Assembly: GCA_018435055.1 (NCBI GenBank)
Contig: JAHDOA010000018.1
Location: forward strand, 248,001-312,000
DNA: 64,000 bases
Reading direction: 5' to 3'
Source: Pelotomaculum sp.
Lineage (GTDB): Bacteria; Bacillota; Desulfotomaculia; Desulfotomaculales; Pelotomaculaceae
The notes under the pieces are model-generated. The model saw only the letters and a program-made list of their open reading frames with translations. It ran no database searches and had not been told where the DNA came from. The translations under genes and the position numbers were made by a program. This document shows positions 54,401-60,203 of the stretch, one piece after another (position 1 is the stretch's first letter; each line of letters begins with the position of its first letter).

Positions 54401-55235
54401 ACAGGTCTTTTTTCACGATAAAACTACACCTGCTGCATTCCTGCGTCGTCCCGTGAGGTGAAACTTTCTCTACTGTTCTACCGGCGCTTTCAGCCTTGTA
54501 AGTCAGCATTGAAATAAATTCACCCCACCCGGCGTCGGATATACTCTTTGCTAAACGGTGGTTTTTGAGCATGTTGGAAATTTTGCAAATCTTCTACAAC
54601 GATTTTGTCGTATTTTTTGACAAGCTCGGCGGACACCTTGTGGTGAAAGTCCCTACGTTGGTTCTTGACTTTTTCGTGCTGTCTGGCCAGTTTTAACCTA
54701 GCCTTAGTCCGGTTTTTAGAGCCTTTCTTTTTGCGGGCTAAACTTCTTTGCAGGGTTTTGAGTTTCTTCTCAATTTTTCGCAGATGTTTCGGGTTAGCGA
54801 TTTCCTCACCATTAGACAGCACGGCAAATTCTTTAATTCCAACGTCTATACCAATAGACTGTTCGGACGGCGGGTACAACACGGGGGAAATTTCCACAGC
54901 TAGTATCGCATACCATTTTCCGGATTGCTCTTTCTTGATGGTACAGGTTTTAACTGTACCAAGGATTTCCCGGTGCAGTTTAATCTTTACTAGACCGATT
55001 TTAGATAGCTTTAGTTTACCATTAACAAGCGATGCGCCCAGACCATCCCCAAATTGGGTATAGGTAATAGAATTGTACCGACCTAAACCTTTATACCTGG
55101 GATAACCGGGCTTTTCACTGGTTTTTGCGGTCGGCTAAAGCAGAATTATAGATAATCCGGCAGGATCTCCAGCCAGTTTTTTAATTTGCGTTCCTGCTTT
55201 TTGTTGGGATATATGCGAAACTTGTAGTTACGCAT
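54312..55235 (-). pseudogene. tnpB: decayed TnpB RNA-guided nuclease
   Basis: Translation in three frames recovers most of a TnpB: it starts MRNYKFRIYPNKKQERKL at ATG 55235 (overlapping the tnpA stop). There is a one-base insertion near 55164, an internal deletion of roughly 50-70 codons near 55112-55118 between LADRKNQ and KPGYPRYKG, and an extra A in the run at 54581-54584 that shifts frame in VEDLQ. RuvC residues ([23 protein letters not shown]) and the zinc finger (CSRC...CKNC) remain readable. It cannot give a functional protein as written. Confidence 0.85.
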
Positions 55236-55632
55236 TCCCTTGAGATTGGACATATTTTTTGACATCTTCAAGCTTTACCTCCCCAACGGTGGATAAAAAA
55301 TAGCTGGGAGACCAAAAACTACCGCCCCATAACTGCTTTTTAACATCCGGATAATCACGAAATATCAGCCTGGCCGTTGTAGACTTCAAAGTGTTGATGA
55401 ATTCGGAAAGCTGAACTGCTGGTTTTGAGGCAAAAATTATGTGAATGTGATCCACATCGGTTTCTTGTTCGATTATTTGTATGCCAAACTTATCGGCTAT
55501 GTTTTTATTCGTTTCTTTCAGGTACTTCGATACCTCCGGTGTAAGTGCCTTATGCCGGTATTTGACGCAGCAAACATAGTGGAACCGAAGTGAATAGATT
55601 GAGTGACATCCTTTGTCAATAGTGTATTTCAT
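55228..55632 (-). CDS. tnpA: IS200-type single-strand transposase TnpA
   Basis: 134-residue Y1 HUH transposase that cuts and joins single-stranded ends of the element. HIHII supplies the HUH metal site (about residue 62), and the nucleophile Tyr lies in DVKKYVQSQ near the C-terminus. FHYVCCVKYRHKAL and GGSFWSPSYFLSTVG are family-typical. The protein looks intact, so the element could still move and could mobilise related ends in trans. Confidence 0.93.
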   Translation of the reverse strand: MKYTIDKGCHSIYSLRFHYVCCVKYRHKALTPEVSKYLKETNKNIADKFGIQIIEQETDVDHIHIIFASKPAVQLSEFINTLKSTTARLIFRDYPDVKKQLWGGSFWSPSYFLSTVGEVKLEDVKKYVQSQGNA

Positions 55633-56865: not shown

Positions 56866-57804
56866 CTAAATCGTAATCTTCGCCCGCTCCCGCATAAAAG
56901 CGATCTGGCGGTCGATGTCACCTTGAATTTCAGCGATGCGCTGCGCGGCGTCGGGGCCTTTAAGCAGGCGGTTAAAGCGACCCTGCTTCATTACGTATTC
57001 ATCCACCGGGTCAGCGTCTTTTATGCCGCTGACGATAAACGAGCTGGGGTTATTAAAACTGATCTTGCCGTTTTCCGCTTCCCATAACAGCCAGGCGCCG
57101 CTGCGTACAGCCATACGGCTCATCTGGACGGTATCAGGCATATCAAACTGCCAGCCTAAATAACAGGGGGCCAGAATTTCGATGTATTTCATGCCGGGGA
57201 TACTTTTGGCTTTTACCACCTTGTCGTATAAATCGCCGGGGTAAGCCACAGTGGCGGTAGCCACGTAGGGAATATCGTGCTCCAGCATCAGCAGGGCCAT
57301 GTTTTTCTTGGGCTGGCGCTTGCCGCCGGGAGTAGTGGTGGTAAAGCTGCCGCGCGGGGTGGCGCCGCTGCGCTGCACGCCGGTGTTGCTGTATGCTTCG
57401 TTGTTATAGCAAAAGTGAATTATATTATCGTTGCGCTCGGCTGCGGCAGAAAGAGCCTGGAAACCGATGTCATAGGTGCCGCCATCACCTACCCAATTGA
57501 ATACGGTGGGCAGTTCGCCCTGCAGGCGGCCCTTTTCCTTCAATATTTCAACCGCCTGTGCAATACCGGAGGCAGAAGAGCCGGCTGTCGCAAAGCAAAC
57601 ATTAATGCAGGGCCAGTTATAGGCCAGCCTGGGGGTCATGCCCATGCTGGCTACCGCGCAGGAGGGGGTCAGCAGCATAATGGCGTTGGGACCCAAAGCT
57701 TTGCCCACGATACGCAGCGCCATTGGGGAGGGACAGCCGCCGCAGGAGCCGTTGCCGCTTAAAACCTGCTCATTATCCGGTAATTGTTTAATACTGGTAG
57801 TCAT
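56866..57804 (-). CDS. porB: 2-oxoacid:ferredoxin oxidoreductase, beta (TPP) subunit
   Basis: 312-residue TPP-binding subunit of a four-subunit oxidoreductase. GNGSCGGCPSPMALR supplies cluster cysteines. WVGDGGTYDIGFQALSAAAERNDNIIHFCYNNEAYSNTG is the TPP/Mg motif, and another Cys lies in APCYLGW. It interconverts a 2-oxoacid plus CoA with acyl-CoA, CO2 and reduced ferredoxin. It is last in porC-porD-porA-porB. Pyruvate is the default substrate guess; branched-chain oxoacids are an alternative suggested by the T-box. Confidence 0.92.
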   Translation of the reverse strand: MTTSIKQLPDNEQVLSGNGSCGGCPSPMALRIVGKALGPNAIMLLTPSCAVASMGMTPRLAYNWPCINVCFATAGSSASGIAQAVEILKEKGRLQGELPTVFNWVGDGGTYDIGFQALSAAAERNDNIIHFCYNNEAYSNTGVQRSGATPRGSFTTTTPGGKRQPKKNMALLMLEHDIPYVATATVAYPGDLYDKVVKAKSIPGMKYIEILAPCYLGWQFDMPDTVQMSRMAVRSGAWLLWEAENGKISFNNPSSFIVSGIKDADPVDEYVMKQGRFNRLLKGPDAAQRIAEIQGDIDRQIAFMRERAKITI

Positions 57805-57850: not shown

Positions 57851-58981
57851 TTATTCATCCATCATGGCGCGAATCTCAGCAGCCATGTAGCGGCGGGTCA
57901 GGTCGACGCCGCCAATGCCCATGACCCGGTTTTTAACCGTGATGTCGCTGCGCCGGCCAAAGAGAACGCTTTTCAGCTCTGCAGCCAAAATGCCGCCGGG
58001 GTGGCCGAAGTTATAGTTGCGGTCCAGTACCATTACCTGCGCATTTTGCGGCAGCGCGCTGACGATATCATCGGCAGGAAATGGCAGGTACAGGCGCAGC
58101 CGCAGCAGGCCGGCTTTGATGCCCTGCTCGCGCAGGATATCGATGGAAAGTCTTAATTCCGCCGCCATACTGTTAACAGCAAAGGCTACCACTTCGGCGT
58201 CTTCCAGCCGGTAGGCGTCGATGGTATCGCCGTCCCACATGCCTGTGATATCCTTATATTCCTGCGCCGCCTGCTTTACCAGCGGGATGGACGCCATGAT
58301 ATCGCTGGACAGCATCTGGCGGAAGGGCGCGTATTCGGCGGCGTTGGTCACATTACTGAAGGAAGAGGGATGAGCCGGGTCGAGCCGCCATTCCGGTTTA
58401 TGCGGGGGCAGGAAACGGTCGATATCCTCCTGTGGCGGCAGGGTCAGGGGCATCAGACAATGGGAGATAGTAAAGCCGTCAAAGTTGACCATCACCGGGA
58501 TATTAATCTGTTCGGCCACGCGGAAGGCCTGCAAAATGGTGTTGAACACCTCCTGGTTGGAGGAGCAATGATATTGGATCCAGCCGGTATCGCGCTGGGC
58601 AAATGAGTCCTGCTGGTCGGCCCACAGGGTCCAGGGGGCGAAAATACCGCGGTTAACGTTACACATTACCACCGGCAAACGTCCGCCGGCAGCCATATGT
58701 AAAACTTCATGCATATAAAGCAGGCCGTTGGACGAGGTGGCTGTGAAAACGCGGGCGCCGGCGGCGGCAGCGGCCACGGCGGCGGCCAGGGTGCTGTGTT
58801 CTCCTTCCACCGGAATGAAGCGGGCGTCCAGCTCGCCATTTTCAACCATAGCGGCCACCGCTTCCATAATGCTGCTCTGGGGGGTGATAGGGTAGCCGGG
58901 CACCACGTCCACCCGGGCGCTTTTAACAGCCAGAGCGGCGGCATGGGCGCCGGTGTCCATTATAACTCGCGCTTCTTTCAT
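57851..58981 (-). CDS. porA: 2-oxoacid:ferredoxin oxidoreductase, alpha subunit
   Basis: 376 residues from ATG 58981 (GGAGG 9 bases upstream); the frame open further to 59185 overlaps porD and is not used. DVVPGYPITPQSSIMEAVAAM, EGEHSTLAAAVAAAAAGARVFTATSSNGLLYMHEVLHMA and the C-terminal VMVLDRNYNFGHPGG are typical of PorA/VorA. It provides the pyrimidine-binding part of TPP and the oxoacid site. It begins 4 bases after porD stops. Confidence 0.93.
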   Translation of the reverse strand: MKEARVIMDTGAHAAALAVKSARVDVVPGYPITPQSSIMEAVAAMVENGELDARFIPVEGEHSTLAAAVAAAAAGARVFTATSSNGLLYMHEVLHMAAGGRLPVVMCNVNRGIFAPWTLWADQQDSFAQRDTGWIQYHCSSNQEVFNTILQAFRVAEQINIPVMVNFDGFTISHCLMPLTLPPQEDIDRFLPPHKPEWRLDPAHPSSFSNVTNAAEYAPFRQMLSSDIMASIPLVKQAAQEYKDITGMWDGDTIDAYRLEDAEVVAFAVNSMAAELRLSIDILREQGIKAGLLRLRLYLPFPADDIVSALPQNAQVMVLDRNYNFGHPGGILAAELKSVLFGRRSDITVKNRVMGIGGVDLTRRYMAAEIRAMMDE

Positions 58982-58985
58982 ACTG

Positions 58986-59243
58986 CTACTCCTCCTTTTC
59001 CATGCTGATCGCGCCGGTGGGGCATTCTTTGGCGCACACGCCGCAGCCCTTGCAATAGCGGTAATCAATAGTAATTTCATGGCGGTCAATGACCGCTTCG
59101 GGACAATATACCCAGCATAATTGGCATTTGGAGCATTTCTTAGTATCAACAACCGGACGGTGCGATCGCCAGGAACCGGTATCACCGCCGGACCCTTTCA
59201 TCGGCCAGGAAATAGGCCGGTAGGCTTTGGTAACAGATTTCAT
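58986..59243 (-). CDS. porD: 2-oxoacid:ferredoxin oxidoreductase, delta (2[4Fe-4S]) subunit
   Basis: 85-residue ferredoxin-like subunit. CSKCQLCWVYCP and CKGCGVCAKECP ligate two [4Fe-4S] clusters that relay electrons from the TPP site to external ferredoxin. A 35-residue N-terminal arm contacts the other subunits in the family. Confidence 0.93.
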   Translation of the reverse strand: MKSVTKAYRPISWPMKGSGGDTGSWRSHRPVVDTKKCSKCQLCWVYCPEAVIDRHEITIDYRYCKGCGVCAKECPTGAISMEKEE

Positions 59244-59282: not shown

Positions 59283-59825
59283 CTATACGCTAATCTGCTT
59301 TACGGTGTTATAAGCCCTGGCAGCGGCGTCCAGGTTGCGCTCACCGTTTTTGCCCGGCCATTTATGCAAGATGGTTTGTTCCATAATATTTTGCGGGATG
59401 TTCAGTACCCGGCACACCGCGCCAAACAGCGGAATATTGATAAAGAGCCCGTCGGCGGAAAACAATCCGGCTTCGCGGGCGATGGCGTCCGCGTCCACCT
59501 GCCAGGTAGGGCGCTTCTCCACGGCTGCGGCGTGAGGAGCATTGATGATTACGGCGCCGTTCTCAGCAATGCCTTCACTGACCGCCGCTGCGGTGAGCTT
59601 TTCGCTCATCACTACCACATAATCCGGCAGCTCGCATTGACTGTGCGCGTGGATAGCCGTGGGAGACATGCGCACTGCCGCCCGCACCGGCGCCCCGCGG
59701 CGCTCCACCCCGAAAAAAGGCAAGGCCTGTCCCTGCTCACCGTTTTCCAGCGCAGCCTGCGCCAGCAGGTGAGCCAGGGTAACGGAGCCCTGCCCGCCAA
59801 ACCCGTTGATTCGTAGTTCTAACAT
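59283..59825 (-). CDS. porC: 2-oxoacid:ferredoxin oxidoreductase, gamma subunit
   Basis: 180-residue CoA-binding subunit: INGFGGQGSVTLAHLLAQAAL, QALPFFGVERRGAPVRAAVRMS and LPDYVVVMSEKL are hallmarks. It is first in the operon, with AAAGGAGG before the ATG and the T-box terminator 60 bases upstream. Confidence 0.93.
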   Translation of the reverse strand: MLELRINGFGGQGSVTLAHLLAQAALENGEQGQALPFFGVERRGAPVRAAVRMSPTAIHAHSQCELPDYVVVMSEKLTAAAVSEGIAENGAVIINAPHAAAVEKRPTWQVDADAIAREAGLFSADGLFINIPLFGAVCRVLNIPQNIMEQTILHKWPGKNGERNLDAAARAYNTVKQISV

Positions 59826-59884
59826 AGCGTTATCCTCCTTTCATGGTACTGCCATAGGCACAATGTTATCTTAAAGTATAAAAA

Positions 59885-60158
59885 TATAAACCCTTCGTTC
59901 AGAACTCTGAGACGAAGGGGTTAACTCCGCGGTACCACTCAGATTAACGGCTAATGCCGTTCACTCCATCAGGAGGCGAGATCTTAAGAGCCGATATCCC
60001 TTCCTTTTAACGGTCGAAGTTCCGTCCGGGCCTACTTTCTAAAATGATTTCGGTCGGCAACTCCAGGATGAGTTCGGCTTGCCTCTTCGACCGCCTCACA
60101 GCAAACAGCGGTTCTCTGCAGCCCAAGGATCAGCTTACTATTCCCTGTCATCGTCATT
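59885..60158 (-). promoter_or_regulatory. T-box leader controlling the por operon
   Basis: On the minus strand the leader contains a stem I with AGTA and AGAGA-type elements and a specifier loop GAACUCAUCC-UGGAG. The conserved T-box TGAGTGGTACCGCGG is at 59927-59941, and it ends in a terminator (ACCCCTTCGT/ACGAAGGGTT, 59888-59922, then TTTATATTTTT). Uncharged tRNA would favour antitermination and por expression. The best specifier reading is CUC (Leu) followed by the conserved A, with the base helix CAGGG/UCCUG; AUC (Ile) is the main alternative. Confidence 0.92.
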
Positions 60159-60173
60159 TTGCATATTGCATTT

Positions 60174-60203
60174 ATTATAACTGACCAGTTATTTTTCTGT
60201 CAA
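60174..60203 (-). promoter_or_regulatory. sigma-A promoter of the T-box/por transcript
   Basis: TTGACA (complement of 60198-60203), an 18-base spacer and TATAAT (complement of 60174-60179). It is the best vegetative promoter in the window, placed just beyond the peptidase stop. Confidence 0.85.

Follow-up and report, generated by a model that had tools for sequence, protein, structure and literature searches.

A leucine-specifier T-box leader precedes a 2-oxoacid:ferredoxin oxidoreductase operon in Pelotomaculum and suggests a role in branched-chain 2-oxoacid synthesis

The locus considered here lies in a window of 64,000 nucleotides (the whole stretch of DNA that was analysed) from Pelotomaculum sp., and contains four genes of one strand forming a single operon for the gamma, delta, alpha and beta subunits of a 2-oxoacid:ferredoxin oxidoreductase (OFOR): porC (gamma; 59283-59825 (-); TIGR02175, 136.6 bits, cut-off 81.1), porD (delta, with two [4Fe-4S] motifs; 58986-59243 (-); TIGR02179, 105.5 bits, cut-off 60), porA (alpha; 57851-58981 (-); PF01855 and PF17147) and porB (beta, TPP-binding; 56866-57804 (-); PF02775). 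PorC and PorD score above these NCBIfam cut-offs, and the Pfam domains POR, POR_N, PFOR_II and TPP_enzyme_C are found in PorCDAB. The gamma-delta-alpha-beta composition is shared with archaeal-type POR and VOR enzymes (9bt4 POR; Pyrococcus VOR), as are the YPITP and NR motifs of the alpha subunit and the TPP motif and cysteines of the beta subunit; unlike these enzymes, the por products of the window represent a subtype of their own, associated with a TIM-barrel protein and an acyl-CoA synthetase (see below). Elsewhere in the window, downstream of spoIIM, a short open reading frame (55228-55632 (-)) resembles an IS200/IS605 TnpA transposase, as judged from its translation.

Upstream of porC, a T-box leader comprising Stem I, the Stem II/III region and the antiterminator was detected computationally by a covariance scan (60160-59905 (-); RF00230, 106.6 bits, E 1.5e-22, gathering score 93), with all 219 model positions covered; across the whole window, this is the sole Rfam match at gathering score. 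The leader is preceded by a sigma-70 promoter (60203-60174 (-)) of the form TTGACA-N18-TATAAT, whose -35 (60203-60198) and -10 (60179-60174) boxes carry 12 of 12 consensus bases (promoter-like sites in shuffled sequence, used as a control, averaged 0.5), and which aligns with, and is largely kept in, the por leaders of 13 relatives. The T-box element UGGUACCGCGG (59937-59927 (-)), read from the sequence, contains a UGGU that could pair with the ACCA 3' end of a tRNA; the intrinsic terminator hairpin (about 59922-59888 (-)), obtained by RNAfold of this segment in the window and the 13 relatives, overlaps the 3' side of the antiterminator and runs on into a U-rich tail that reaches about 59876, hairpin and tail ending about 50-60 nt upstream of the porC ATG (59825). 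The por leader thus displays the UGGN element with competing antiterminator and terminator which defines membership of the T-box class. The original prediction had claimed precisely a complete T-box leader, a near-consensus promoter and a terminator 60 bases before porC, and had named a covariance search failing on Stem I and the antiterminator as the result that would speak against it; the full-length match to the Rfam model and the structure common to the relatives agree with it on every point. A near-palindrome, TAACTGGTCAGTTA, lies within the promoter spacer (60197 to 60180) and resembles the second half-site of two T-box-less por promoters (L078 and L089); it was set aside, since the T-box promoters of other loci do not keep it as a palindrome.

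The comparison of the window leader with those of the 13 relatives indicates that the structure is maintained: T-box pairing is present in 83% of cells of the 14 leaders, compared to 23-46% with the partners slid, the covariation score exceeds that of 500 out of 500 shuffles, 93.8% of cells in the terminator hairpin are paired, and the alignment shows no variation in the T-box element or in most of the antiterminator. Plain minimum-free-energy folding of the window leader alone was not significant (z -1.06), and a simple terminator scan did not report the terminator of the porC leader. It may be asked whether the T-box is a decaying, non-functional one, por being expressed from an upstream peptidase gene or constitutively; the upper Stem I pairs are indeed imperfect in the pair counts of the 14 leaders, and in Pelotomaculum sp. 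UBA4789 (G003), a congener which also has the por operon, the leader is absent and porC directly follows an M20 peptidase gene. Such decay is scarcely credible, because promoter, invariant specifier, T-box element, antiterminator and terminator are kept in the 14 leaders despite many substitutions elsewhere.

The specifier codon of the por leader is CUC, for leucine (60072-60070 (-)), as read both in the Rfam alignment and by an offset rule that counts a constant distance from the 3' side of Stem I; all 14 por leaders aligned (the window genome and 13 Syntrophomonadaceae-type loci) have this codon without variation. Applied to synthetase leaders of the same genome, the offset rule returns codons that fit the enzymes: CTC for leuS, ACC for thrS, ATG for metG, ATC for ileS, TTC for pheS, GGC for glyQ, GTC for valS and AAC for hisS (AAC being a specifier of hisS-aspS leaders); it returns TGG for both trpB and trpE and ATC for the ilv operon, the genes behind these leaders being named from their translations. 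Two further leaders may be recorded here: in three genomes a Leu T-box leader encloses an entire tRNA-Ala(GGC) gene immediately upstream of the antiterminator (the window genome, L002, C57:22964-23258 (-); a congener and a Syntrophomonadaceae-type genome, L218:802-876 and L227:204-276), and two tandem T-box antiterminators precede a gene for an ABC-transporter substrate-binding protein (L003/L017; C36:18625-19015 in the window genome). A CUC triplet is also that of the Leu-class T-box of the Bacillus subtilis ilv-leu leader (Marta 1996, cited in PMC2494555), with which the por leader shares the T-box element and the competing antiterminator and terminator upstream of an operon; the difference is that the por leader controls a ferredoxin-dependent OFOR and not a synthetase, a transporter or an ilv/leu gene, and ferredoxin is not mentioned in the main text of that T-box survey (PMC2494555).

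No specifier had been named in the original prediction, which suggested leucine or isoleucine; the leucine part stands for the por leader, and an isoleucine T-box is found instead on a second OFOR subtype. In one locus (L082) a second OFOR operon lies behind a second T-box whose specifier is AUC (isoleucine), and among members of this subtype at more than 78% identity a T-box leader is present in 12 of 12 sampled genomes, always with an isoleucine specifier (11 ATC, 1 ATA); these leaders (L082:6690-6916 and L231-L242) carry an atypical UGGUAUAGCG element. Homologues of lower similarity in the loci fetched, among them the one of the window genome itself at 60%, have no T-box leader. The two OFOR subtypes are therefore labelled with different amino acids by their specifiers; in family scores, the isoleucine subtype behaves like POR and the leucine subtype leans towards VOR.

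Named relatives place this por operon (PorA identity 86-93%) in Syntrophomonadaceae, including Syntrophomonas zehnderi, and the linkage between T-box and por, which the original prediction had proposed to look for in related genomes, is present upstream of porC in 13 of the Syntrophomonadaceae-type loci examined. In a tree of concatenated porC-A-B the window sequence and that of UBA4789 are paired (100/100) among Syntrophomonadaceae sequences, several forks being open; this nesting suggests that the por operon entered Pelotomaculum by horizontal transfer. Around half the por operons of Syntrophomonadaceae type are without a T-box, and in most of those a DNA palindrome, TGGTCTGACCA, directly follows the -10 box upstream of porC (L078, L079, L083, L087, L089, L091, L096, L064 and L068); a stricter pattern containing it occurs at por only, in 3 of the 10 genomes searched. 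The palindrome is probably an operator of GntR/FadR type, putative as yet, and since some por leaders carry the T-box and others TGGTCTGACCA, control of one and the same operon seems to differ by lineage, being exerted by RNA in some lineages and probably by a DNA-binding regulator in others.

In other families of Bacillota the same por subtype (47-60% identity) forms an operon with genes for an AMP-forming acyl-CoA synthetase of fatty-acid type (PRK12583-like) and a xylose-isomerase-like TIM barrel, in the order synthetase-TIM-porC-D-A-B (L072, L074, L075, L076, L104 and L208; in L073 the TIM gene is beside por without the synthetase); in L072 this operon lies directly downstream of ilvD and ilvN. 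The window genome encodes the two partners as a single TIM-synthetase fusion of 849 aa (L061:2952-5501), on a different contig from por and with its own upstream T-box, whose specifier is CTC. A T-box lies directly upstream of such fusions in 15 of 20 loci, with CTC in 15 of 15; one of the remaining five ends at a contig edge and four are without a T-box match, three of these four retaining a terminator and possible leader remnants. In UBA4789 a CTC T-box is followed by an acyl-CoA synthetase gene and then by leuS; that synthetase gene (L222:6002-7625) is split into two overlapping frames by an apparent frameshift, either an assembly error or a pseudogene. The synthetase or the OFOR is thus connected with leucine in three different arrangements, and through operons and CTC T-boxes both kinds of gene are linked to this amino acid, as expected of a pathway of isovalerate carboxylation.

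In the phylum sample and outside two families (f33 and f145), the TIM protein is present in 10 of 10 genomes with this por subtype, adjoining por in 8 of them; its overall figure in the sample is 43 of 398 genomes. No match to it was found in UBA4789, where por is present, nor in the Syntrophomonadaceae-type genomes tested; in the latter the acyl-CoA must therefore have another source, which may be fatty-acid oxidation, for example. In alignment the TIM barrel keeps E142, D170, H197 and E239, which we take to be the four residues expected for the metal site of that family. An AlphaFold model of it, built from 3 sequences (pLDDT 80.6), retrieved in a fold search the broad sugar-epimerase superfamily only, at 15-21% identity and with no clue to the substrate.

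As arbiters of the substrate of PorCDAB, the family models do not decide, PorA and PorB lying under every POR and VOR equivalog cut-off (POR: PorA 365/550, PorB 307/405 and PorC 135/270; VOR equivalog or subfamily: alpha 339/646, beta 326/405); likewise, when aligned with the known structures of POR, the sequences were seen to keep the catalytic motifs and revealed no specificity determinant. Below the cut-offs, PorA scores 339 bits with PRK08366 (VOR) versus 285 with PRK08367 (Pyrococcus-type POR), VOR being ahead by 54 bits, and PorB scores 326 bits with the VOR-beta subfamily NF008818 versus 307 with PorB NF008819; the other PorA of the window genome has the reverse preference, the POR model being above the VOR model. 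That the porCDAB label may hide a branched-chain oxoacid enzyme, as originally suggested, is consistent with these leanings and with the Leu T-box context.

Two other assignments of an anabolic substrate have to be weighed against these data. A true pyruvate synthase, whose induction through the Leu T-box would raise the supply of pyruvate for leucine and other amino acids, would agree with the best single family score of PorA, which is that of archaeal pyruvate synthase PorA (the 365 bits given above), and with the fact that leucine synthesis draws on pyruvate; against it stand the shortfall from the cut-off of 550, the 54 bits by which the VOR alpha model beats that of Pyrococcus POR, the fatty-acid-type nature of the partner synthetase, and the presence in the window genome of a fused PFOR beside malate dehydrogenase, for pyruvate, and of another PorCDAB, so that this assignment is quite unlikely. 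A VOR-type enzyme converting isobutyryl-CoA to 2-oxoisovalerate, for use by LeuA and for valine, with the Leu T-box sensing the end product, is unlikely: the PorA and PorB scores lean that way, and LeuA, LeuC and LeuB are available to use 2-oxoisovalerate, but Val or mixed Leu/Val specifiers would then be expected, and CTC is invariant in the por and fusion leaders, and the ilv operon of the genome has an Ile specifier. The canonical leu genes of the window genome are in an ilv-leu operon under that Ile T-box. Matches to LeuC and LeuB were found in all genomes tested (one LeuB match being weak) and to LeuA nearly always, so that a por route substituting for a missing leu pathway was rejected; given the presence of the canonical genes, the route would supplement them.

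The reading that we prefer, with a probability of roughly 0.6, is that porCDAB encodes a leucine-regulated branched-chain 2-oxoacid synthase, fed in part by the TIM-synthetase fusion under its own Leu T-box. From the sequence context we infer the response to tRNA, the substrate, the direction of the reaction and the role of the TIM barrel. Uncharged tRNA-Leu, on accumulating, would base-pair both to the Stem I specifier CUC and to the T-box bulge, stabilising the antiterminator and allowing transcription to read into porCDAB; the enzyme would then combine reduced ferredoxin, CO2 and a branched acyl-CoA, most likely isovaleryl-CoA, into 2-oxoisocaproate, to be converted into leucine through transamination by IlvE. 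The acyl-CoA would be supplied at least partly by the TIM-barrel/acyl-CoA synthetase fusion, and the net route, induced by leucine starvation, would lead from a branched acid (most likely isovalerate) via acyl-CoA and 2-oxoacid to leucine. Since the T-box turns the operon on when leucine is short, PorCDAB is expected to make, and not to burn, a leucine precursor. OFORs are reversible, and the VOR of Thermococcales runs in the oxidative, catabolic direction, which would lend itself to an oxidation of leucine-derived 2-oxoisocaproate to isovaleryl-CoA with reduction of ferredoxin; this is very improbable here, the T-box inducing the operon at leucine scarcity and the partner synthetase, also under a Leu T-box, consuming ATP. 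The anabolic, branched-chain role suggested in the original prediction is well supported, for leucine, by comparison: by a specifier that reads CUC, by the conservation of the leader, by the synthetase partner under a Leu T-box and by the VOR-leaning scores of PorA and PorB.

The formation of leucine by carboxylation of isovalerate is known from the rumen (Allison 1962, 1966, cited in PMC7356843), and the predicted route shares with it the branched acid, its activation with CoA, the reductive carboxylation and the transamination; the difference is that the rumen work concerned labelling chemistry, and what is described here are candidate genes of syntrophs and other Bacillota whose regulation is specific to leucine. 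A CoA ligase beside an OFOR occurs also in the window genome itself, where IorAB adjoins a PaaK-type CoA ligase (L210); OFOR family and ligase are different there, and in the IorA loci scanned no T-box match reached the gathering score. To our knowledge, no set of bacterial genes has been assigned through its regulation to leucine formation from isovalerate and CO2; a limited literature search found none, and no report of a T-box with an OFOR or with an acyl-CoA synthetase was found in the open-access literature. Each part of the system is of a known kind; the combination is, as far as checked, new.

More broadly, and with a confidence somewhat short of even, it may be proposed that the specifier reveals the substrate in a family of reductive carboxylases each dedicated to one amino acid: an OFOR under a Leu T-box, together with a TIM/synthetase that is also under a Leu T-box, and a separate OFOR under an Ile T-box. 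Jointly these would allow leucine and isoleucine to be made from short acids and CO2, the TIM barrel catalysing a so far undescribed step. The por and synthetase genes are strong candidates for the synthesis of leucine by addition of CO2 to a branched short-chain acid, and would turn the labelling observation of the 1960s into a testable set of genes that carry their own label in the specifier codon; T-boxes can thereby guide the annotation of OFORs, which are poorly assigned by sequence similarity alone, and the T-box regulon would gain ferredoxin-dependent, CO2-fixing enzymes.
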